Shown piece by piece: positions 5,341-62,395 of a stretch of 64,000 nt of DNA. The notes under the pieces are model-generated. The model had not been told where the DNA came from. It worked only from the letters and a program-made list of their open reading frames with translations, and made no database searches. The DNA is taken from positions 4,655,501-4,719,500 of the forward strand of contig NZ_CP126080.1 of NCBI RefSeq assembly GCF_030122805.1. The letters run 5' to 3'. The position numbers and the translations under genes are program-made. The stretch's first letter is position 1. Each line of letters starts with the position of its first letter. This stretch comes from Mesobacillus sp. AQ2. GTDB lineage: Bacteria > Bacillota > Bacilli > Bacillales > Cytobacillaceae.

Positions 5341-5510
5341 GTGCCCGTAAACCGTGATTTTCTCGTTTTACGTGCACATGTTTCCCTTTCTTGTGACCGT
5401 GATCCACGATTTTCTCTTTTCACGGGCACATGTTTCCCTTTCTTGTGACCGTGACCTCGGCTTCTCCTTTGCACGGGCACATGTTTCCCTATTATATGGC
5501 CGCCATTTCA
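5341..5510. repeat. 52-bp tandem repeat array A (about 3 units)
   Basis: The landmark GCACATGTTTCCC recurs at 5374, 5426 and 5477, a spacing of 52 and 51 bp. Within each unit CACGGGCACA can pair with TGTGACCGTG (one mismatch) across a 13-nt loop. The rest of the unit is pyrimidine-rich on the plus strand (ATTTTCTCTTTT). It lies between the convergent genes ywhB and ywgA. No credible gene is present; short ORFs here are repeat artefacts. Confidence 0.9.
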
Positions 5511-15125: not shown

Positions 15126-15151
15126 CATTTCCACCTCTATCTTTAAATTAA

Positions 15152-15332
15152 GGCTCTTTTCTCAAACTATGTTGCCATTGATTACAAAATGGGATTGAAT
15201 GACCTAGTTTTCTGCATAAAAAAGCTTATTATGAGAAAAGAGCTTGCACACTTAAAAACGAACTGCAAAATGGCTTAATAGCACGTTAAAATCGGCTTTA
15301 AGATTTTAACAACAATCTTTACGAAAACAACC
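15152..15332 (+). mobile_element. MITE-A copy 1 (181 bp)
   Basis: Non-coding element beginning GGCTCTTTTCTCAAA and ending TTTACGAAAACAACC, so the termini are imperfect inverted repeats. It is flanked by TAAATTAA (15144-15151) and TAAATTAG (15333-15340), a 7/8-matching 8-bp target duplication. Inside, TGAGAAAAGAGC repeats the left end in inverse orientation, and GTTAAAATC/GATTTTAAC forms a second hairpin. Two relatives lie at 42703 (inverted) and 50866. The right duplication contains the ywdI stop codon. Confidence 0.85.
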
Positions 15333-15336
15333 TAAA

Positions 15337-15660
15337 TTAGAAATCGAATAGCGAGTCTCCGTTTGAATCATCATCCATTTCCAGTTTTTTCGGCTGCGGA
15401 ACCATTGTTGATGGCTGGCTTACTGGCATCTGCTGCTGAGGAAAGACTGGTTGAGCAGGAATAAGTTGCTGTGCTGGCTGCTGGATGATATGGCTTTGCC
15501 AGGGCTTGCCTGACCCCTGCTGTGGTTCATCAAGAACAAGTTCACAAAGCGTTTTAATCGACTGGATTCGTTCCCGCTGTGCAGCTTCAGATTGTGCCGA
15601 TTTGGCCCGGCTTAATTCTTCTTCCATTTTCAAAAGCAATTTTTGCAGTGAAATATTCAT
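15337..15660 (-). CDS. ywdI: YwdI family protein (DUF5327-like)
   Basis: A 107-residue protein resembling B. subtilis YwdI; function unknown. The N-terminal half is an amphipathic helix/coiled coil (LLKMEEELSRAKSAQSEA). The middle is rich in Gln and Pro (low complexity) and the C-terminus is acidic (DDDSNGDSLFDF). GGAGGTGAG precedes the ATG. It lies next to ung, as in B. subtilis. Its stop codon sits inside the target duplication of the adjacent MITE, so the coding sequence survived the insertion unchanged. Confidence 0.8.
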   Translation of the reverse strand: MNISLQKLLLKMEEELSRAKSAQSEAAQRERIQSIKTLCELVLDEPQQGSGKPWQSHIIQQPAQQLIPAQPVFPQQQMPVSQPSTMVPQPKKLEMDDDSNGDSLFDF

Positions 15661-18968: not shown

Positions 18969-19020
18969 TTATGGACACTTTTTCCGGGTTCTGGCTCCGT
19001 TTTGTCCATTAGAGTGTCCC
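18969..19020. repeat. Single 52-bp repeat unit
   Basis: Contains TATGGACACTTTTTC and TTTTGTCCATTAGAG, the same landmarks and spacing as the six-unit array at 30.8-31.1 kb. It shows that the unit also occurs singly and dispersed. It abuts the left target duplication of the MITE at 19030. Confidence 0.75.
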
Positions 19021-19029
19021 TTTAAAAAT

Positions 19030-19212
19030 GGCTCTGTTAAACAAGACTGTTGATTTTCGTTCCAGGCGCATCGCTTTCCGCGGGGCTGGCGCTGAGCCTC
19101 CTCGTCGCTCTGCTCCTGCGGGGTCTCACCTGACCAGCTGCGCCCGCAGGAGTCTACGCGCCTTCCACTACAATCAACAGGTGTATAAACATCATTGGGC
19201 TTTAACAGAGCC
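19030..19212. mobile_element. MITE-B, GC-rich 183-bp element
   Basis: Bounded by terminal inverted repeats GGCTCTGTTAAAC and GCTTTAACAGAGCC and flanked by a perfect 8-bp duplication TTAAAAAT (19022-19029 and 19213-19220). The GC-rich interior has GTTGATT and AATCAAC near its ends, so the whole can fold on itself. It encodes no transposase; a 62-codon ORF across it lacks a ribosome site. The right duplication includes the TAA stop of the adjacent moeA-type gene. I recall closely similar repeats as widespread in Bacillaceae. Confidence 0.88.
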
Positions 19213-24641: not shown

Positions 24642-25467
24642 GGCTGCCACCTCCATCTTCTTCATGGCCTTTGTCCTCTTTATTGAACAGCTTATTGCTG
24701 ACGAATGCGCCAACAAGTGCCATGCTTGTCGCTCCAAGCATCATTTTGCCGATTGGCTGTGCGTAATCCTTCCAGACTACCGCTGAAGTTGGAACCTTAG
24801 GCTTTTCAGGCAATCCGTAAACGGAAGGCTTTTCAGCTAGGACATAAATCGTATGTGTACCGCCGACTCCTTCTGGGTTGTAGATCATGGCGTTAGGGAA
24901 ACGGCCCTTGATTTCGCTCAGGCGCTTTTCAGCTTTCTTGAGCATTTCATCTTTTGTGCCGAACTCCATTGCGTCTGTATGGCAGGTAGTGACACAAGCC
25001 GGCTGCATGCCTTCCTCAAGGCGGTCAACACACATCGTGCATTTCTGGGCCTTCTTGTATTCCTTGCCATTCTTGTCTTTGTATGTTGCCAGCTGGACGA
25101 CATCGAATGGGCAGTTCTGTACACAGTAGCCGCAGCCAACGCATTTATCCGTGTTCACATCGACCGTGCCGAATTCTGTGTAGTGCATGGCATCCTCCGG
25201 GCACACCTTAACGCAGGCAGCTTCCGTACAATGGAAACAGGATGAATGACGGAAAAGGTATTCAAGATTTCCTTTTCCGTTTTCGTGTTCAATGAATGAC
25301 AGCACGTTCCAGGTATTTGCCGTTACATTCGCATGTGATTGGACGCTGCCCTGGAAAGCTTCCGGCTCAGCCGGAAGGTCATTCCAGTTTTTGCAGGCGA
25401 CCATACATGCGCGGCAGCCATCACACTTGGTCACGTCAACAAATTTTACATATTCAGCCTTCGCCAT
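24634..25467 (-). CDS. Formate dehydrogenase iron-sulfur subunit (beta)
   Basis: Electron-transfer subunit with four [4Fe-4S] clusters. Cys motifs in order: CDGCRACMVACKNW (12-25), CFHCTEAACVKVCP, CVGCGYCVQNCPFD and CTMC with a later CVTTC. A hydrophobic helix near the C-terminus (MLGATSMALVGAFV) anchors it to the membrane. It has 277 residues. It overlaps both neighbours (1 bp with the alpha gene, 8 bp with the cytochrome gene), so the three structural genes are translationally coupled. Confidence 0.95.
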   Translation of the reverse strand: MAKAEYVKFVDVTKCDGCRACMVACKNWNDLPAEPEAFQGSVQSHANVTANTWNVLSFIEHENGKGNLEYLFRHSSCFHCTEAACVKVCPEDAMHYTEFGTVDVNTDKCVGCGYCVQNCPFDVVQLATYKDKNGKEYKKAQKCTMCVDRLEEGMQPACVTTCHTDAMEFGTKDEMLKKAEKRLSEIKGRFPNAMIYNPEGVGGTHTIYVLAEKPSVYGLPEKPKVPTSAVVWKDYAQPIGKMMLGATSMALVGAFVSNKLFNKEDKGHEEDGGGSHE

Positions 25468-28448
25468 TAGTCAGCCCTCCTTACGTCGCAGAGGAATGCC
25501 TTATATTCAGGAATCATCGTGTTGGCGTCCCCAATATGAGGTGTTAAGCGGTTTGCTGTATCCCCTGTTGCATATCCTTTATATCCGAAGTGCCAAGGCA
25601 TGCCAATCTGGTGGACTTTCTTGCCGTTTACAGTGTGCGGCTTGAAGCGTTTCGTCACCATCGCATAGGCTTTAACCTCGCCGCGAGCTGATGTCACGAT
25701 AACCTCGTCCTTGTTCTTGATGCCTTTTTCCTTCGCTAGCTCTTCACTCATCTCGATGTACATATGGCCCATCAATTCTGACAGCCATTGCTGGTTCCTT
25801 GTCATCGAGCCTGATTGCCAGTGTTCACTTACACGATACGTTGTCGCCACGATCGGGTACTGCTTCTTCGTGCCTTTAAGGTTGAAGTCGCCATCCCAGA
25901 CCTTGATGGTCGGGTTGAATTCCTGGCTGGAGAACGCATTCGGCACCGGACTTTCAAACGGCTCATAGTGTTCTGGGAACGGTCCGTCATTGAGCGTTGG
26001 AGCAAACATGCCGCCGACGCCATCCTTCAGCATGATGAATGGATTCGTGCCTCCCTTGTCAGAAGGAGCGACCACTGCCTTGAAGTCAGGAATATCATGT
26101 CCAGTCCATTTTTTAGCCAGGCCATCCCACCAGATGACTGCCTTATCCTTGTTCCATGGCTTGCCGGCTGGATCTGCAGATGCGCGATTATAAAGAATCC
26201 GGCGGTTCATAGGCCATGCATAAGACCAGTTCAGGAAGTTGCCCATGCCATTATCCTTGTTGTCACGGCGCTTGGACAGGTTGCCTTCTTCCGGATAGAA
26301 GCCTGAATAAATCCAGTTTCCGGAGCATGTGGACCCGTCATCAGCAAGCGAACCGAAGTTCTCGACCTGTTTGCCTGTCTTAGTGTAATAACCGTTGATT
26401 TCACGGGCGACTAGATCGAATTCTGGATGATCATGTTCACCGTAATTCCAGTACAGTGCATTGATAGCTTTTGCAGCAGGTGAGCTTTCATTTTTGTACA
26501 TGCCTTTGATTCTTTGCATCAGCATATGGATGATTTCCATGTCTGCCTTTGATTCGCCTTTAGGCTCAATTGCCTTCCAGCGGTACTGCATCCAGCGTCC
26601 GCTGTTCGAAACCGTTCCTTCTTTCTCGTATGAGGATGCGGCCGGAAGCAGGAATACCTCTGTGTTGATTTTTGATGGATCGCTGCCAGCTTCTTTTTGC
26701 CAGAATGCTGAAGTTTCTGTCTCCCAAAGGTCAATTGCAACCAGCCAGTCAAGGTTGCTGAGTGCTTCTTTTTCCTTGCCTGCATTCGGGCCGCCGACTA
26801 CAGGATTGGTTCCAAACAGGAATGCGCCATCCAATTCGCCTTTATACATCGCATTGAAAAGGGCGATATGGGAGTAATTCTTGTTTCCTTTAGGAAGATA
26901 TTGATAGCAGAACTCATTGTCCTTTGTCGCGTTAGGGCCATACCATGCCTTGAGAAGGCTGACGACGAATTTTGGCTTATTGCTCCAATATCCAGCAGCA
27001 GGCGTTTCTTTTTCAAGATAGGCCTTAAGAGTTGCATGTTCAGGAAGCTCTTTCGGCGCTCCCAGATATCCTGGAAGATCCCCGAACAAAAGACCGAAGT
27101 CTGTTGAGCCTTGTACGTTTGATTCACCGCGAAGCGCGTTTACTCCGCCGCCAGGCATACCGATGTTGCCAAGAAGCAGCTGCAGCATGGCATATGAGCG
27201 GACGTTCTGGGTACCGACCGTATGCTGGGTTGTACCCATCGCATAAAGGATCGTACCTGCTTTTCCAGGCTTTCCTGTTGAACAGAAAGCGTCAGCCACC
27301 TTCAGGTAGTCTTCCTTAGGTGTTCCTGTCACTGTTGACACAGTGTCAACATCATAACGGGAATAATGCTTTTTCATCAGCTGGAACACGCTGCGAGGAT
27401 GCTGTAGTGTTTCATCCTTGACCGGGGTCCCGTCTTCTTGTGTTTCAAAAGACCAGCTAGCCTTGTCATATGAACGGGTTTTTGAATCATATCCGCTGAA
27501 CAAGCCGTCCTCGAATTCGAAGCCTTCCTTGACGATAAAGGAGGCATTTGTATATTTAGCAACATACTCTTTGTGGAAAAGGTTATTTTCGATCGCATAA
27601 CTGATCAAACCGCCGATAAAAGGAATATCGGTTCCAGAACGGAGCGGAGCATAAGTGTCAGCCTGTGATGACGTTCTTGTGAAACGCGGATCGACTGATA
27701 GTATTTTCCCTCCGTTTTCCCTTGCCTTTAAAAGCCATCTAAAGCTGACTGGATGGTTTTCAGCAGGGTTCGCGCCAATGATCAGCGCACAATCGGTATG
27801 CTGCAGATCATTCCAGTGATTTGTCATTGCTCCACGACCAAATGAAGGTGCCAGACCGGCAACCGTTGAACTGTGTCATATTCGTGCCTGGTGCTCTAAA
27901 TAGGTGACACCAAGCCCTCTCATCATTTTCGCGAGCAAATAAGTTTCTTCATTATCAAGTGCCGCGCCGCCTAGGCTTGCGATCGCTTCTGTTTTATTGA
28001 CAAAAATTCCGTTTGTTTTTTCAACGAATGTCTTGTCACGTGTTTCCTTCACGCGCTTGGCAATGGTATCAAGCATCCATCCCCAATCTTTTTCTTCCCA
28101 CTTATCGCTTCCAGGAGCCCGGTAACGAGGCTTCAGGACGCGTTTTTCTGAGGTGAATAATTGTCTGATCGTTGTCCCTTTACTGCACAGGCTTCCTTCG
28201 TTGATGGGATGATCCGGATCCCCTTCCGTATATACCACATCATTGTTTTTCGTATGGACTAAAATCCCGCAGCCCACAGCGCAGTATGGACAAATGGTTG
28301 GTGTAACAGTAGCTTTGGCAATCTTGAATTCTTTTGTTTTCGCATGGACTTCTTTTTCGTTGAAGCCAAGTTCAACAATCGCCAGGGTTGCCGCAGTGGC
28401 TCCTGACAGCTTCAAAAACTGCCTGCGATTCAGGTTGATTTCAACCAT
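25467..28448 (-). CDS. Selenocysteine-containing formate dehydrogenase alpha subunit (UGA at 27876-27878 read through)
   Basis: Catalytic bis-MGD subunit oxidising formate to CO2. The gene looks broken into two ORFs (190 and 786 codons) by a UGA. Reading UGA as Sec joins them into one 993-residue FdnG-like protein. The context HQARI-Sec-HSSTVAGLAPSFGRGA matches the Sec site of E. coli FdnG. A SelB-type hairpin follows the UGA. The N-terminus has a Tat motif NRRQFLK and a hydrophobic segment, so export as a folded complex is expected. [4Fe-4S] ligands are Cys 53, 56, 60 and 88; Sec is residue 191. selA, selB, selC and selD are not in the window. Confidence 0.95.
27847..27864 (-). promoter_or_regulatory. 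SECIS-type hairpin for SelB
   Basis: On the mRNA, GGUUGCCGGUCUGGCACC begins 11 nt after the UGA. It folds as GGU/ACC and GCC/GGC stems with a bulged U and a GGUCU loop. E. coli fdhF has the same distance, the same bulged U and the same GGUCU loop, the features read by SelB. Confidence 0.88.
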
Positions 28449-30756: not shown

Positions 30757-30814
30757 TCTATCCCTATTTCTGTTTCTAATGATATTTTAAAAGCCTTTTT
30801 GCCTGGTAGAGCCC

Positions 30815-31125
30815 TTTTTATGGACACTTTTCTGGGATTCTTCTATATTTTTGTCCATTAGAGCCCCTCTCATGGACACTTCTTCAGGAATTTCTCTTGT
30901 TTTTGTCCATTAGAGCCCTTCTTACGGACACTTTTTCAGGAATTCCTCATGTTTTTGTCCATTAGGGCCCTTCTCATGGACACTTTTCTGGGATTTCTCT
31001 TTATTTTTGTCCATTAGAGCCCCTCTTACGGACATTTTTCAGGGAATTCGTCATCTTTTTGTCCGTTAGAGCTCTTCTAATGGACACCAGCAATCGTCAT
31101 CTTTTTGTCCAATAGACTCTTCTCC
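30815..31125. repeat. 52-bp tandem repeat array C (6 units)
   Basis: The landmark (T/C)GGACA recurs at 30821, 30873, 30925, 30977, 31029 and 31081, exactly 52 bp each time. Between units TGTCCAT and ATGGACA can pair across a 13-nt TAGAGCCC-type loop; changes in one arm leave G-U or paired bases. The remainder is T/C-rich on the plus strand. It fills the gap between the convergent genes pdxK and yndM. No coding gene is supported. Confidence 0.95.
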
Positions 31126-31184: not shown

Positions 31185-31541
31185 TTATATTTTCCGGTTG
31201 ATATGAAGAACCCGATCTGCGACATAACTATGGAAGAACCATTCACCAGAGGCGATCAGGGCAGCTGCAAAAAGTGACGCTCCAATCAAGCCATTAGTCT
31301 GTTCAAACAACAACAGCCCCAGTCCCCATATTACGAGAAACGACAATGCAAAATCTGCAAGTGAAGCTGTCAGATTGCTTGTTTTTGGAAGAATAAACAA
31401 ATCACCAGCCAGGTAGGATATAGCTCCAAGGACAAGGGTGATGATCAGGATGTCTCCTAACCCTGCATAACTGCCCAAAAACAGAAGCAGGATGGCAAAT
31501 GTCATGATGGCTTTAATCAGCAATGCTTTTGAGTGCTCCAT
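31185..31541 (-). CDS. DUF2512 membrane protein (YndM-like)
   Basis: A 118-residue protein with four membrane helices filling most of its length, of the DUF2512/YndM type; function unknown. The start is ATG 31541 (MEHSKALLI) with AAAAGGAGGGAG just upstream; the frame extends a further 26 codons without a ribosome site. A conserved GDLFILP turn lies between helices 2 and 3. B. subtilis YndM is associated with sporulation-era expression, but nothing here proves that. Confidence 0.78.
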   Translation of the reverse strand: MEHSKALLIKAIMTFAILLLFLGSYAGLGDILIITLVLGAISYLAGDLFILPKTSNLTASLADFALSFLVIWGLGLLLFEQTNGLIGASLFAAALIASGEWFFHSYVADRVLHINRKI

Positions 31542-31690
31542 ATGCTCCCTCCTTTTCCCTTCACTATTTCCATTTACTTTCCTGATTAAACACTTACTGT
31601 AAAACCTCCGAGCGTACATTTCGCTTTAAGAAAGATTTTTTAGTAATATAGATATAATCGATTTTAAAAAGATTGATGCAATCAAAAGCA

Positions 31691-35848: not shown

Positions 35849-35878
35849 AATTGGAAAAAATCACGGAAAATTACCAGT

Positions 35879-35955
35879 TCGCCAATAAATTTTGATTTTC
35901 GCCAATAAAGTTGTGAACTTCGCCAATAAAACTCGATTTTCGCCAATAAAATGAT
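35879..35955. repeat. 21-bp-class repeat array F (4 units)
   Basis: TTCGCCAATAAA recurs with GCCAATAAA at 35881, 35901, 35922 and 35942, spacing 20-21 bp, separated by variable A/T-rich octamers. It lies between the convergent tetR gene and the PQQ-type dehydrogenase gene. Confidence 0.88.
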
Positions 35956-35997
35956 TAGCGCCTTTATAATAGGAAGTTAAAACTCTCCTTTCTCCCC

Positions 35998-42670: not shown

Positions 42671-42702
42671 GTTACTGGCAGCGCAAAATGATTAAAATGA
42701 AA

Positions 42703-42885
42703 GGCTGTTTTCGTAAAGATTGTTGTTAAAATCCTAAAGCCGATTTTAACGTGATAATAGCCATTTTGTATGTCGGTACTAAGTTTGCAAGCTCTTTTCT
42801 CAGCATAAGCGTTAATTGTGTGAATAATCTTAGGTAATTCAATCCTATTATTTAGGCAATAGCAACAAAGTTTGAGAAAAGAGCC
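42703..42885 (-). mobile_element. MITE-A copy 2 (183 bp, inverted)
   Basis: Reads in the opposite direction to copies 1 and 3: GGCTGTTTTCGTAAAGATTG on the left, TTTGAGAAAAGAGCC on the right. Flanks AAATGAAA (42695-42702) and TTATGAAA (42886-42893) match at 6 of 8. The same internal hairpins are present (GTTAAAATC/GATTTTAAC; AAGCTCTTTTCTCA near 42790). It separates malR from malL within the maltose gene set. Confidence 0.85.
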
Positions 42886-42936
42886 TTATGAAATGACAGG
42901 TTACATCAGGATTAAACAATGAAATGAGGGTTCACA

Positions 42937-46380: not shown

Positions 46381-46440
46381 AATTCCGCGAAAATCGCACT
46401 GAATTCCGCGAAAACAAAACCAAATTCCGCGAACTGAAAA
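46381..46440. repeat. 21-bp-class repeat array G (3 units)
   Basis: ATTCCGCGAA recurs at 46382, 46403 and 46424, exactly 21 bp apart, with A-rich variable parts. It lies between the convergent yjiH-like gene and the glycine-rich protein gene. Confidence 0.88.
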
Positions 46441-46503: not shown

Positions 46504-47031
46504 TTAACACTGGAATGACCGAATCTGTCTCAGGTCTATGCCGAAGTAAACCCATCCGCGGCGGCGGCTCCATCTCCAGCCGGCAACTGAATTGCGGCCC
46601 AGGAAGACTGGATAGAACCAGAAGCTTCTGCCATCAATCAGCCAGATGTAAGTGAAACGGAACATGCATCTCCGGATTCCTCCCGGGTCGACCGCAAAGG
46701 CAGTCGCCTGTTCTTGCGGTACAAAGGCTGGCGGCGGTGACGATGGCGGGCCTCCTGCCTGGCCTCCGCCTGGTGAACCGCCGGGACCTCCCGGGAATCC
46801 TCCTGCACCGCCCGGAAACCCGCCAGGGCCTCCTGGGAATCCTCCTGGACTGCCCGGAAACCCACCAGGGCCTCCCGGGAATCCTCCTGGGCTGCCTGGA
46901 AATCCTCCAGGAAACCCGCCAACTGTCCTCATATCCACATTCTGGTCGTACTCATTTTCATAGCAATCATAATCATTTTCAAATTGTTGATTAGGTCCGT
47001 ATGGGTAGAAGTTGTTGTTATCCAAACTCAT
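46504..47031 (-). CDS. Glycine/proline-rich GFPG-repeat protein
   Basis: A 175-residue protein of unknown function. From ATG 47031 (MSLDNNNFYPYG; AGAGGGG upstream) it has an Asn/Tyr/Asp-rich head, then about a dozen tandem GGFPG/GSPGG units (roughly residues 37-95), a Pro-rich spacer, and a compact C-terminal domain rich in aromatic and basic residues with two Cys (RRCMFRFTYIWLIDGRSF, then FQC at the very end). The design resembles spore-surface or coat-associated proteins, but no signal peptide is visible. The repeat tract is GC-rich and likely to vary in length. Confidence 0.75.
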   Translation of the reverse strand: MSLDNNNFYPYGPNQQFENDYDCYENEYDQNVDMRTVGGFPGGFPGSPGGFPGGPGGFPGSPGGFPGGPGGFPGGAGGFPGGPGGSPGGGQAGGPPSSPPPAFVPQEQATAFAVDPGGIRRCMFRFTYIWLIDGRSFWFYPVFLGRNSVAGWRWSRRRGWVYFGIDLRQIRSFQC

Positions 47032-47084
47032 ATCCCCTCTCTTGATGTATTCCATGTAATCTATGCGAATCGCCCAGTTTGGTG

Positions 47085-50819: not shown

Positions 50820-50860
50820 AAAGGGTATTGAGTATTCGCCGATACCCTTTCTCCCTTTTT
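50820..50860 (+). terminator. Terminator after nosZ
   Basis: AAAGGGTAT pairs with ATACCCTTT around a 13-nt loop, then TCTCCCTTTTT. The MITE target duplication lies in its T-run, so downstream nos genes need read-through or another promoter. Confidence 0.82.
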
Positions 50861-50865
50861 AAAAA

Positions 50866-51046
50866 GGCTCTTTTCTAAAACTTTGCTGCTATTACTGCAA
50901 AATTGCAGTGATGACCTAGGTAACTTCGCTAAATGGACGATTTGGATGAGAAAAGAGCTTTCAAACTAGATACCGACCAGCAATATGCCTGATCATACGT
51001 TAAAATCGGCTTTAGGATTTTAACAACAATCATTACGAAAACAGCC
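50866..51046 (+). mobile_element. MITE-A copy 3 (181 bp)
   Basis: Begins GGCTCTTTTCTAAAACTTTG and ends CATTACGAAAACAGCC. Flanks TTTAAAAA (50858-50865) and TTTAATAA (51047-51054) match at 7 of 8. It shares the internal TGAGAAAAGAGC and the GTTAAAATC/GATTTTAAC hairpin with copies 1 and 2. It sits inside the nos cluster, right after the nosZ terminator. Confidence 0.87.
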
Positions 51047-51121
51047 TTTAATAAAGATTGTAAATCGAGAAATGACCAGCCTGATCGAGGCAATGCGCAT
51101 TTCTTTTAGGAGATGATTCAG

Positions 51122-54822: not shown

Positions 54823-55539
54823 ATGAAACGCATACTTTTTGCTTTGCTCAGCCTGCTCATGATCAGCTTTGGACTCGCCGCCTGCCAGCAGAATGAAAAA
54901 CAGCCTGCCGCTGAGAGTCGTGCTGGTGCTGAAGGCCAGGCTAGTGCAAGCACTCCCGCAACAAAAGAAGGCTTCACTGCTAAAGACAAAGTCGTCACCA
55001 TCAGCGGCAAAGTCCTTTCCTATGAGGACCTGCAATTCTACCAGCTGATGAACAAGGTCGACATCGAGCTGAACCGCTCTGTTGATGAAAAGAATCTCGA
55101 AGGCGAAAACTTAAAGGAAAAACTGGCTTATTGGGATGAGCAGCTTAAGTATCACGATAACTTCAATGTGAATCTATCAAAAATGATCGAACAGCACGCA
55201 ATGTACCTGCTTGCGAGGGAAAAAGGACTGGATGTTGAAAATGCGGCTGTCGCGAAAACAGTGAAAGACTACACTGCCAAAGCCGCGCAAAATGAAGCAG
55301 CTTCACAGCTTATCTCTGAATTTCCAACCGACGCATATAAAAACCGACTGAACAACTACTTCACCGAAAAGCTGCTGACACAGCAGATTTTCGACACACT
55401 CAAAGCCGATGTGATAAAAGAAAAACCCGAAGCACCAGAAATCGAAATCGCCTATGACACATCAAAAAACTACGAAGAACTCTATCAATCACAAATCGCC
55501 AGCCTGGAAATCAAGATCAATGCAGCAGAAAAACAATAA
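54823..55539 (+). CDS. SurA-N-like lipoprotein, last nos-cluster gene
   Basis: A 238-residue lipoprotein (lipobox LAAC at about 18-21). After an Ala/Glu-rich linker it has a mostly helical domain beginning KVVTISGKVLSYEDLQFYQL, similar to the N-terminal chaperone domain of SurA/PrsA-type proteins, but no rotamase domain follows. AAAGGAATG lies upstream of ATG. It is 6 bp after the YtkA-like gene and so belongs to the operon. It may help fold or metallate NosZ outside the membrane; this is inferred only from position. Confidence 0.78.
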   Translation: MKRILFALLSLLMISFGLAACQQNEKQPAAESRAGAEGQASASTPATKEGFTAKDKVVTISGKVLSYEDLQFYQLMNKVDIELNRSVDEKNLEGENLKEKLAYWDEQLKYHDNFNVNLSKMIEQHAMYLLAREKGLDVENAAVAKTVKDYTAKAAQNEAASQLISEFPTDAYKNRLNNYFTEKLLTQQIFDTLKADVIKEKPEAPEIEIAYDTSKNYEELYQSQIASLEIKINAAEKQ

Positions 55540-55550
55540 ATGAGTAAAAT

Positions 55551-55590
55551 GGGAAACAGCCCCTGCGGACAGAGGCTGTTTCTCATTTTT
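55551..55590 (+). terminator. Terminator of the nos cluster
   Basis: GAAACAGCC pairs with GGCTGTTTC around a 12-nt loop, then TCATTTTTCAT. Confidence 0.85.
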
Positions 55591-55618
55591 CATAGGTTTG
55601 CGCGGGAGATGTGACTGA

Positions 55619-56090
55619 CTTCGGACAGCTTTTCGGTTTTTTCTCTTAAACCTGTCCGAACTCAGGGCTACTTCGGACAGCTTTTTGGGTTTTCCTCGCA
55701 AACCTGTCCGAACTCGGAGCTACTTCGGACAGCTTTTTGGCTTTTTCTCGCAAACCTGTCCGAACTCTGGACTACTTCGGACAGCTTTTCTGGTTTTCCT
55801 CTTAAACCTTTCCGAACTCTGGACTACTTCGGACAGCTTTTCTGGTTTTCCTCTTAAACCTGTCCGAACTCTGGACTACTTCGGACAGCTTTTCAGATTT
55901 TCCTCGCAAACCTGTCCAAACTCGGAGCTACTTCGGACAGCTTTTTGGCTTTTTCTCGCAAACCTGTCCGAACTCTGGACTACTTCGGACAGCTTTTCAT
56001 CTTCTTCCCCCAAACCTGTCCGAACTCCGGCCTGATTCTGACAACTTTTCTGAATTCCCCATGGAACCTGTCCGAACAGTCACATGGTCT
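55619..56090. repeat. 52-bp tandem repeat array D (9 units)
   Basis: TCGGACAG starts at 55621, 55673, 55725, 55777, 55829, 55881, 55933 and 55985, exactly 52 bp each, with a degenerate ninth unit at 56037. Each junction forms CTGTCCGAA / TTCGGACAG, a 9-bp stem with an 11-nt loop. The rest is T/C-rich on the plus strand. It fills the gap between the convergent nos cluster and the tRNA deacylase gene. ORFs through it shift frame every unit and are not genes. Confidence 0.97.
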
Positions 56091-59758: not shown

Positions 59759-60030
59759 CCAGCAGGGAACTTATTTCCCCGGCCGGAAATATATTGGTCT
59801 CTACCAGGAATAAAGTGGTTCCAACCGGGAGTATCTTGCTCCAAATGGAATATCTTGCGTCCAACTGGAGATATCCCGCTCACAACTGGAGATATCCCGC
59901 TCACAACTGGAGATATCCTGCTCACAACTGGAGATATCCTGCTCACGACTGGAGATATCTTCCCCTCAACTGGAGATATCCTCCCTTCCAACCTGCAATT
60001 TCTTCGCCCAACCGGGACAGATTACTTTCA
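59759..60030. repeat. 21-bp-class repeat array H (about 12 units)
   Basis: The core unit AACTGGAGATATCCYGCTCAC is marked by CTGGAG at 59865, 59886, 59907, 59928, 59949 and 59970, exactly 21 bp each. Degenerate units continue on both sides (e.g. CAACCGGGAGTATCTTGCTCC). One plus-strand frame therefore encodes a repeating NWRYPAH heptapeptide, but there is no ribosome site. It lies between convergent flavoprotein genes. Confidence 0.93.
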
Positions 60031-61854: not shown

Positions 61855-62395
61855 GATCATTGGACATTTCATTCCCACTCAAACACGCAAATGTCTATAT
61901 AATTGCTTTTCTTGACTTCTCTTCGCCATTCACTATCCAAAATGTCTATTAAGACTCGGTTCTTGGACATTTCAACGCTTTCTATTCTTCAAAATGTCCA
62001 TTTAAGCACGTTTCTTGGACATTTCAACAGCTTCTGCTCTTCAAAATGTCTATTAAACCGCTTTTCTTGGACATTTCATCCCTTCACACTCTCCAAAATG
62101 TCCATTAAACCACTTTTCTTGGACATTTCAACAGCTTCTGCTCTCCAAAATGTCCATTAAACCACTTTTCTTGGACATTTCAACCCTTCACACTCTCCAA
62201 AATGTCCATTAAACCACTTTTCTTGGACATTTCAACCCTTCACACTCTCCAAAATGTCCATTAAACCGCTTTTCTTGGACATTTCAACCCTTCACACTCT
62301 CCAAAATGTCCATTAAAGCACCTTTCTTGGACATTTCTACACCTTCCGCTCTTCAAAATGTCTATTAAATCCACCCTTTTTGGCCATTTCACTGC
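61855..62395. repeat. 52-bp tandem repeat array E (about 11 units)
   Basis: TGGACAT starts at 61861, then (degenerate) 61913, 61964, 62016, 62068, 62120, 62172, 62224, 62276, 62328 and 62381. Spacing is 52 bp with single 51- and 53-bp steps. AAATGTCCA pairs with TGGACATTT, a 9-bp stem with a 15-nt loop. The remainder is T/C-rich on the plus strand. It lies between two codirectional genes (phosphorylase and mutase), unlike most of the other arrays. Confidence 0.96.

Follow-up and report, generated by a model that had tools for sequence, protein, structure and literature searches.

Intergenic arrays of 52-bp units in Mesobacillus sp. AQ2 combine conserved inverted arms with A/T steps phased to the DNA helix and may be platforms for a DNA-wrapping protein

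The window, that is the whole 64-kb stretch of DNA analysed (positions 4,655,501-4,719,500 of the single 4.80-Mb contig of Mesobacillus sp. AQ2), carries four intergenic arrays of 52-bp units, here called A, C, D and E. Array D, the one from which the original prediction started, is separated from a plus-strand gene (54823-55539) by the intrinsic terminator of that gene. The features of the window needed below are:

5342..5502, minus strand, array A: about three units of 52 bp with a different core, arms CACGGGCACA / TGTGACCGTG
18971..19009, no strand assigned, single long dyad: ATGGACA-N25-TGTCCAT
30807..31116, minus strand, array C: about six units of 52 bp, arms ATGGACA / TGTCCAT, last unit only 46 bp
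35878..35962, no strand assigned, array of 20-21-bp units of a second class, TTCGCCAATAAA core
55549..55594, plus strand, intrinsic terminator of the gene 54823-55539, between gene and array D: hairpin of -23.0 kcal/mol plus T tract
55613..56076, minus strand, array D: about nine units of 52 bp, arms TTCGGACAG / CTGTCCGAA
55620..55660, no strand assigned, first long dyad of array D: TTCGGACAG-N23-CTGTCCGAA, GGACA to TGTCC 30 bp start to start
59828..59982, no strand assigned, 21-bp array of the second (two-turn) class, called by the tandem-repeat finder TRF
61855..61930, minus strand, degenerate outermost unit(s) of array E, read from the sequence
61931..62391, minus strand, array E: about nine units of 52 bp, arms AAATGTCCA / TGGACATTT

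All four arrays for which a 52-bp period had been claimed were recovered by TRF, which called period 52 at 5356-5490 (2.6 copies), 30807-31087 (5.4), 55613-56050 (8.4) and 61931-62391 (8.8). The total of about 29 units given originally included degenerate end units, and about 25 were found by TRF. In agreement with the statement that the units differ between loci or share only a core, GGACA...TGTCC is common to three of the arrays and the single unit, and the array at 5356 has GGGCACA...TGTG. The single unit placed at 18969-19020 is indeed isolated, without a tandem copy, but consists of just one inverted arm pair and forms no array. A second copy of the 47-base stretch holding this dyad was not found in the own genome with up to three mismatches allowed, and its reading as a site beside a regulator gene was discarded, the neighbours being moaE- and moeA-like genes with no regulator among them. 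A GC-rich repeat, GCTTTCCGCGGGG...CCTCCTCG, adjoins the dyad at 19040-19190; similar GC-rich units make up 113- and 128-bp repeats in another genus (L327, L328).

For the census of repeat periods, 80 evenly spaced 20-kb stretches (1.6 Mb, one third of the genome) were analysed together with the window. This own-genome sample yielded 132 non-redundant TRF arrays. Among the long periods, 52 was called 38 times, 53 six times and 104 twice, with one array each of 51, 54, 63 and 159; among the short ones, 20 was called 14 times and 21 29 times, other periods being scattered. The genome-wide run of a tandem-repeat finder that had been proposed as a check thus gave a sharp 52/53 peak over unrelated units, and the claim of one length despite unrelated sequences holds genome-wide in the sampled third. 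Every noncoding array of the sample with a period above 45 had a period of 51-53 or a multiple thereof, or was one overlapping array of 63. The listed arrays of 51, 52, 53, 104 and 159 are noncoding, with an overlap of 0.00-0.01 with genes called by a crude ORF and hexamer procedure that has known misses, e.g., 31185-31619. Of the 43 arrays of 20-21 bp, six were coding by the same calls, as was the 54-bp array, and arrays within genes had periods mostly divisible by three. A GC-rich 21/42-bp repeat in the window (46778-46911) lies within a minus-strand ORF (46504-47055) that probably encodes a repeat protein, and a similar one occurs near locus D in genome G086 (L153, 2279-2544).

Merging of overlapping TRF rows left 48 arrays of period 51-53, with a mean unit of 52.08 bp, or 5 x 10.42. 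The second class comprised 37 noncoding arrays of 20-21 bp in the sample, with several unrelated cores; the mean period of the noncoding short class was 20.77, or 2 x 10.39 (n = 41 arrays, periods 19-22 and 40-42). A further array of this class was seen in the window at 46381-46433.

In the 48 arrays the next copy was found at 52 bp in 70% of positions, at 53 in 24% and at 51 in 4.5%. Inverted arms were present in most units, the best stem of the consensus scoring 8.0 on average vs. 4.6 for shuffled units, and 33 of the 48 consensus units exceeded all 30 of their own shuffles. According to their arms the arrays fell into the families TGTCC (20), TGTCA (10), CATAAGGG (7), GGCACAT (6) and CCAAT (4), with one other. 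Arms of the TGTC families alternate at 30 and 22 bp: with own and other genomes pooled, the F-to-R spacing was 30 in 740/815 cases and the R-to-F spacing 22 in 742/776, most of the other-genome loci having been selected by this geometry itself and the own-genome sample not. The 30/22 geometry is common to the TGTCC and TGTCA families, which seem to be related to each other; the arrays are therefore not all independent. The pattern GGACA-N24..26-TGTCC-N16..18-GGACA had 187 and 194 matches on the two strands of the own genome and none when read backwards, which excludes chance. Single-base length changes within a unit were compensated in no case and uncompensated in 31, so that helical compensation of indels was rejected, a finding that speaks against strict enforcement; larger length deviations showed no clean clustering at one turn.

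The original prediction knew of no such element in Bacillaceae, and in this it was wrong: tandem repeats of constant size (52 or 20-21 nt), variable sequence and noncoding position were published for Bacillus in 2021 (Subirana & Messeguer, PMC8161180). These authors reported several unrelated families per genome with partial turnover between strains and short signals together with their reverse inside one unit; they remarked that 20-21 nt equals two turns, and left the function open, suggesting protein polymers or sRNA. The present arrays are likewise noncoding by the crude gene calls, belong to several families (six groups in the own genome, 'other' included), show partial turnover and occur in Firmicutes, Bacillaceae included, with named matches of the GGACA pattern in Bacillales and other groups; their periods are 51-53 and 20-21, and in the longer class the next copy lies at 51-53 bp in 98.8% of positions. 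In the 2021 paper 'helical' is used of RNA folds only, and the strings 'palindrom' and 'terminator' are absent. RNA-seq data of B. coagulans have been reported to contain 52-nt repeats (PMC8625621); a satellite survey of prokaryotes does not list the 52-nt class in the part of the text available (PMC6749651), and the accessible part of an article on REPs (PMC3733652) was of no help for 52-bp arrays. No description of helical phasing or dyad structure of the 52-nt repeats was found in the literature searched. What is added here to the published account is the A/T phasing, the dyad phase, the 30/22 geometry and the constraint on the arms.

A two-unit GGACA pattern was present in 122 of 193 family genomes, with 0 matches of the control in all of them; the 71 genomes without it are those negative in a search that covered GGACA arms alone. 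Within the genus, G080 and G086 had 0 and 1 match. Among the 80 listed of at least 118 stretches found were Mesobacillus, Neobacillus, Cytobacillus, Heyndrickxia coagulans, Ureibacillus, Trichococcus and Sedimentibacter, and one listed record labelled Chryseobacterium has its isolate series in common with Bacillus records. In 40 stretches of four other genomes, chosen irrespective of the position of arrays, nine period-52 arrays were detected (G015 1, G020 5, G061 3, G037 0) besides single arrays of period 38, 39, 40, 42, 113, 128 and 164. Of the 21 genomes of the genus, 15 have a 52-bp array at locus E, always on the same side of the orthologous gene. At locus D an array was found in 9 of 20 genomes, with TGTCC arms in three and TGTCA arms in six, and was absent in 11. 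The orthologues of locus D (L141-L160) thus carry TGTCC or TGTCA arms at one intergenic site, differing between congeneric species.

The A/T content of the units is phased with the helix. Fourier power at the fifth harmonic (10.4 bp) was 3.33 when pooled over the 48 own arrays, the highest of 300 shuffle sets reaching 1.43 and 5116 background intergenic 52-mers 1.12. Power ranged from 2.1 to 5.3 across the five named families and was 2.26 once the arms were masked; the four arrays of the CCAAT family had more power at the seventh harmonic than at the fifth. The other-genome set (158 loci, 118 chosen by the GGACA pattern and 40 by place) provided 131 arrays, with a power of 2.76 for 106 TGTCC arrays and 2.69 for 25 others, many of them still TGTC-like, vs. 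1.33 and 1.68 for the highest shuffle sets. The 27 consensus units taken from the available part of PMC8161180 gave 2.96 (highest of 1000 shuffle sets 1.73), with the fifth harmonic the largest of twelve in 15 of them. Units containing neither TGTC nor GACA behaved alike, at 3.37 (14 own), 2.87 (9 from other genomes) and 2.90 (17 published), the highest of 300 shuffle sets being 1.91, 2.50 and 1.82, respectively. The original remark that 52 bp corresponds to about five turns of DNA is therefore no mere numerology, given the 10.4-bp phasing of A/T within the units. Phasing was weak in the 20-21-bp class (A/T 2.33 for two turns per unit and 1.93 for one; AA/TT 1.78 vs. a highest shuffle of 1.79).

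The phase is also tied to the dyad. With the arms masked, GC was in phase with the centre of the short dyad in 25/29 own arrays, in 92/99 and 17/19 arrays of other genomes and in 16/16 published units, these sets being what remained of 48 own, 106 and 25 other-genome arrays and of the 19 of 27 published units entered after units with a stem below 6 or an arm distance above 24 had been dropped. Shuffled spacers gave fractions of 0.47-0.50, and background 52-mers with a stem 386/813. The TGTC-free subset showed the same phase in 9/11 own, 5/6 other-genome and 9/9 published units. When the filter was omitted and the dyad was chosen by best stem, TGTCA arrays split 6 to 4 and 6/7 CATAAGGG arrays had the opposite sign, because the two dyads of these families have nearly equal arm distances. 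Anchoring on TGTC[CAT]-N17-[AGT]GACA gave the same sign of phase in 131/131 consensus units of the own and other genomes. Since the members of a family are related, such counts overstate independence; more weight attaches to the agreement seen across unrelated families and genomes. Static curvature, modelled with dinucleotide wedge angles, was 0.103 for tandem units and 0.075 for shuffled ones, and 0.096 for real arrays vs. 0.087 for background intergenic DNA, an excess too small for curvature to be the whole answer.

The arms are better conserved than the rest of the unit. Stem scores of 6 or more were reached by 43 arrays, in which mismatches to the array consensus amounted to 273/7752 (3.5%) in arm columns and 1636/13507 (12.1%) in the others; arms were better kept than spacers in every one of the 43, and random rotation of the arm positions gave a mean of 0.089 and a minimum of 0.072. 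At locus E, majority units from 14 genomes (two from one species) were anchored on AAATGTCY with a neighbour 51-53 bp away, so that the anchor arm is kept by construction; the unanchored arm, GGACATTT, was nearly all kept, only its first base varying, and the long spacer drifts. Within arrays, changes of left-arm bases were met by the matching partner in 3/100 cases for the short dyad and 4/100 for the long one, with 2.9 expected from the other units of the same array, several arrays contributing many of the 100 changes. At the changed bases there was no excess of G.T over A.C (28 vs. 32). A selected RNA hairpin was rejected on these grounds, as far as changes of the left arm go, and the uncompensated changes point to recognition of half-sites in duplex DNA rather than to pairing in RNA or in a cruciform.

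The same results bear on an explanation at the RNA level, according to which the arrays are transcribed and their units fold into stem-loops acting as sRNA, sponge or 3' end element. The inverted arms could pair, transcription of such repeats has been reported for B. coagulans (see above), and in 37/46 cases the purine-rich strand of the array coincides with the sense strand of the gene upstream, a soft count given the crude gene calls. A/T phasing with the helix has no obvious meaning for single-stranded RNA, and at the gathering threshold no Rfam family was found on the arrays, a SECIS_3 elsewhere being the sole match in the window.

Terminators bear on this explanation as well. In the own-genome sample an intrinsic terminator was found between stop codon and array at 22/35 sense-side and 11/13 antisense-side gene ends, compared with 234/402 control gene ends, the scan extending up to 400 nt at arrays and over 130 nt at controls. 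Most of the gene ends examined accordingly have a terminator ahead of the array, and 13 of the 35 sense-side ends do not; the majority of arrays, though not all, would from these predicted terminators seem to lie outside the transcripts of their neighbours. Taken together with the uncompensated arms, this makes an RNA-level function quite unlikely. That the arrays replace the intrinsic terminator of the upstream gene was hinted at by locus D, where by eye the nine genomes with an array lacked a terminator before it and 9 of the 11 array-free genomes had one right after the gene. The count of the own-genome sample, in which the sense-side ends are served by terminators much like the controls, largely refutes the idea, and it is now highly improbable.

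The polarity of the arrays mostly follows replication. The purine-rich strand was the leading strand in 44/48 arrays, as it is for array D (minus strand), and in 339/506 background intergenic regions, so that purine polarity is partly general to intergenic DNA. In convergent or divergent gaps the match with the leading strand was 13/15.

Neutral or selfish satellites would offer another account, in which slippage or unequal exchange spreads the units and concerted evolution, with template switching from arm to arm, keeps length and arms without any function. Arrays come and go at one site over the genus, and two genomes of one species have 8.8 and 6.8 copies at E and 8.4 and 8.9 at D; the geometry common to the TGTCC and TGTCA families fits as well, and concerted evolution between arms could likewise lower arm divergence. 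Harder to reconcile with it are the arms kept in 14 genomes while the spacers drift and the A/T phase common to unrelated units of different genomes; in addition, the two-unit GGACA pattern had no match in the viral_contigs collection, and array D none in plasmids or phages. We regard satellites without function as unlikely.

The fixed length, the dyad, the conserved half-sites and the common bending pattern are most simply read as the work of a protein that wraps or polymerises in five-turn steps. We infer that the arrays are platforms of duplex DNA for such a putative reader, and give this a probability of roughly 0.55. Each 52-bp unit would be a dyad-symmetric piece of five helical turns, in which the short dyad is flanked by conserved inverted arms, two turns apart in the TGTC families. 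A/T steps recurring at 10.4-bp intervals, and GC lying in phase with the centre of the dyad, would create one continuous bendable face over the units; a dyad-symmetric protein may wrap or polymerise along that face, one register per unit, and would thereby form, between transcription units, an element of the nucleoid or of DNA topology.

Among known systems, the gyrase sites of E. coli, to which BIME-2 elements belong, show a phased 10-bp variation of G/C interpreted as a code for bending (PMC6379681). The phasing is alike; strong gyrase sites are single and extended, however, and not 52-bp arrays with conserved arms. By analogy with enterobacterial BIME-2, phased A/T in the arrays, which also lie between genes, might favour wrapping by gyrase near gene ends. 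A reader of shape needs no conserved arm sequence, and the 71 family genomes negative for GGACA arms contrast with gyrase, which to our knowledge is universal; such gyrase platforms are very unlikely. REP and BIME elements resemble the arrays as intergenic inverted repeats of alternating orientation, variable copy number and proposed topological role, but the arrays keep a strict 52-bp register and do not go along with the Y1 transposase in their distribution. A search for this REP-associated transposase (PF01797) was negative for G085 (161 array matches), G089 (159) and G088 (39) and positive for G080, which has 0 matches, and a partnership with it was rejected for this mismatch. CRISPRs are likewise regular arrays with palindromic parts. 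Here the spacers are alike within an array, non-arm columns departing from the consensus by the 12.1% given above instead of being unique, the period is 52 and there are 48 arrays in one third of a genome.

Which protein would act as the reader was considered by family, any one candidate being quite unlikely at best. No histone fold (PF00808, the one Pfam family searched) was found in the own genome, and a histone-fold reader was rejected. Lrp/AsnC (PF01037) is present in 19/21 genus genomes; neither G087, a complete genome with 150 array matches, nor G078, an incomplete one, yielded a member, and Lrp/AsnC was dismissed as an obligatory partner on account of the former. RemA of B. subtilis, which acts at the eps and tapA promoters, is an octameric ring-shaped protein thought to wrap DNA, and its footprint covers periodic, AT-rich and poorly conserved repeats with 7 bp protected and a gap of 3 bp (PMC8481266). 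AT-rich periodicity and wrapping are shared with the arrays; RemA sites lie upstream of promoters, and 52-bp dyads are not mentioned in the available part of that article. RemA-like proteins (PF04025) occur in 21/21 genus genomes, array-poor ones included, and presence alone says little. The best RemA match of the array-rich genome G089 is split in two (C1, 2541655-2541874), reflecting a frameshift or an assembly error.

A broader and more tentative possibility is a bacterial wrapping code, in which one rule would govern unrelated 52-bp units: GC would lie in phase with a dyad axis, A/T would recur every 10.4 bp, and inverted half-sites would stand roughly one turn to each side of the short dyad. 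The 20-21-bp class might then be its two-turn version, and a DNA-wrapping Firmicutes protein reading shape might form fixed nucleosome-like beads between transcription units. The published puzzle is that noncoding repeats keep their length while their sequence changes freely; the dyad-anchored 10.4-bp A/T rule turns it into a testable claim, namely that the length is five turns because one face of the DNA is bound. If this is true, dozens of places on the chromosome carry a fixed architectural element that annotation ignores.

Two further features of the window were recorded. An interspersed repeat of about 200 bp is present in three diverged copies (15136-15355, 42697-42893 and 50850-51069), one of them inverted. 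The SECIS_3 match (RF01989; 27823-27881, minus strand) lies beside a 786-codon ORF (25467-27827, minus strand) and some kilobases from MoaE-, MoeA- and ThiF-like genes, and the ORF possibly encodes a selenocysteine-containing molybdoenzyme.
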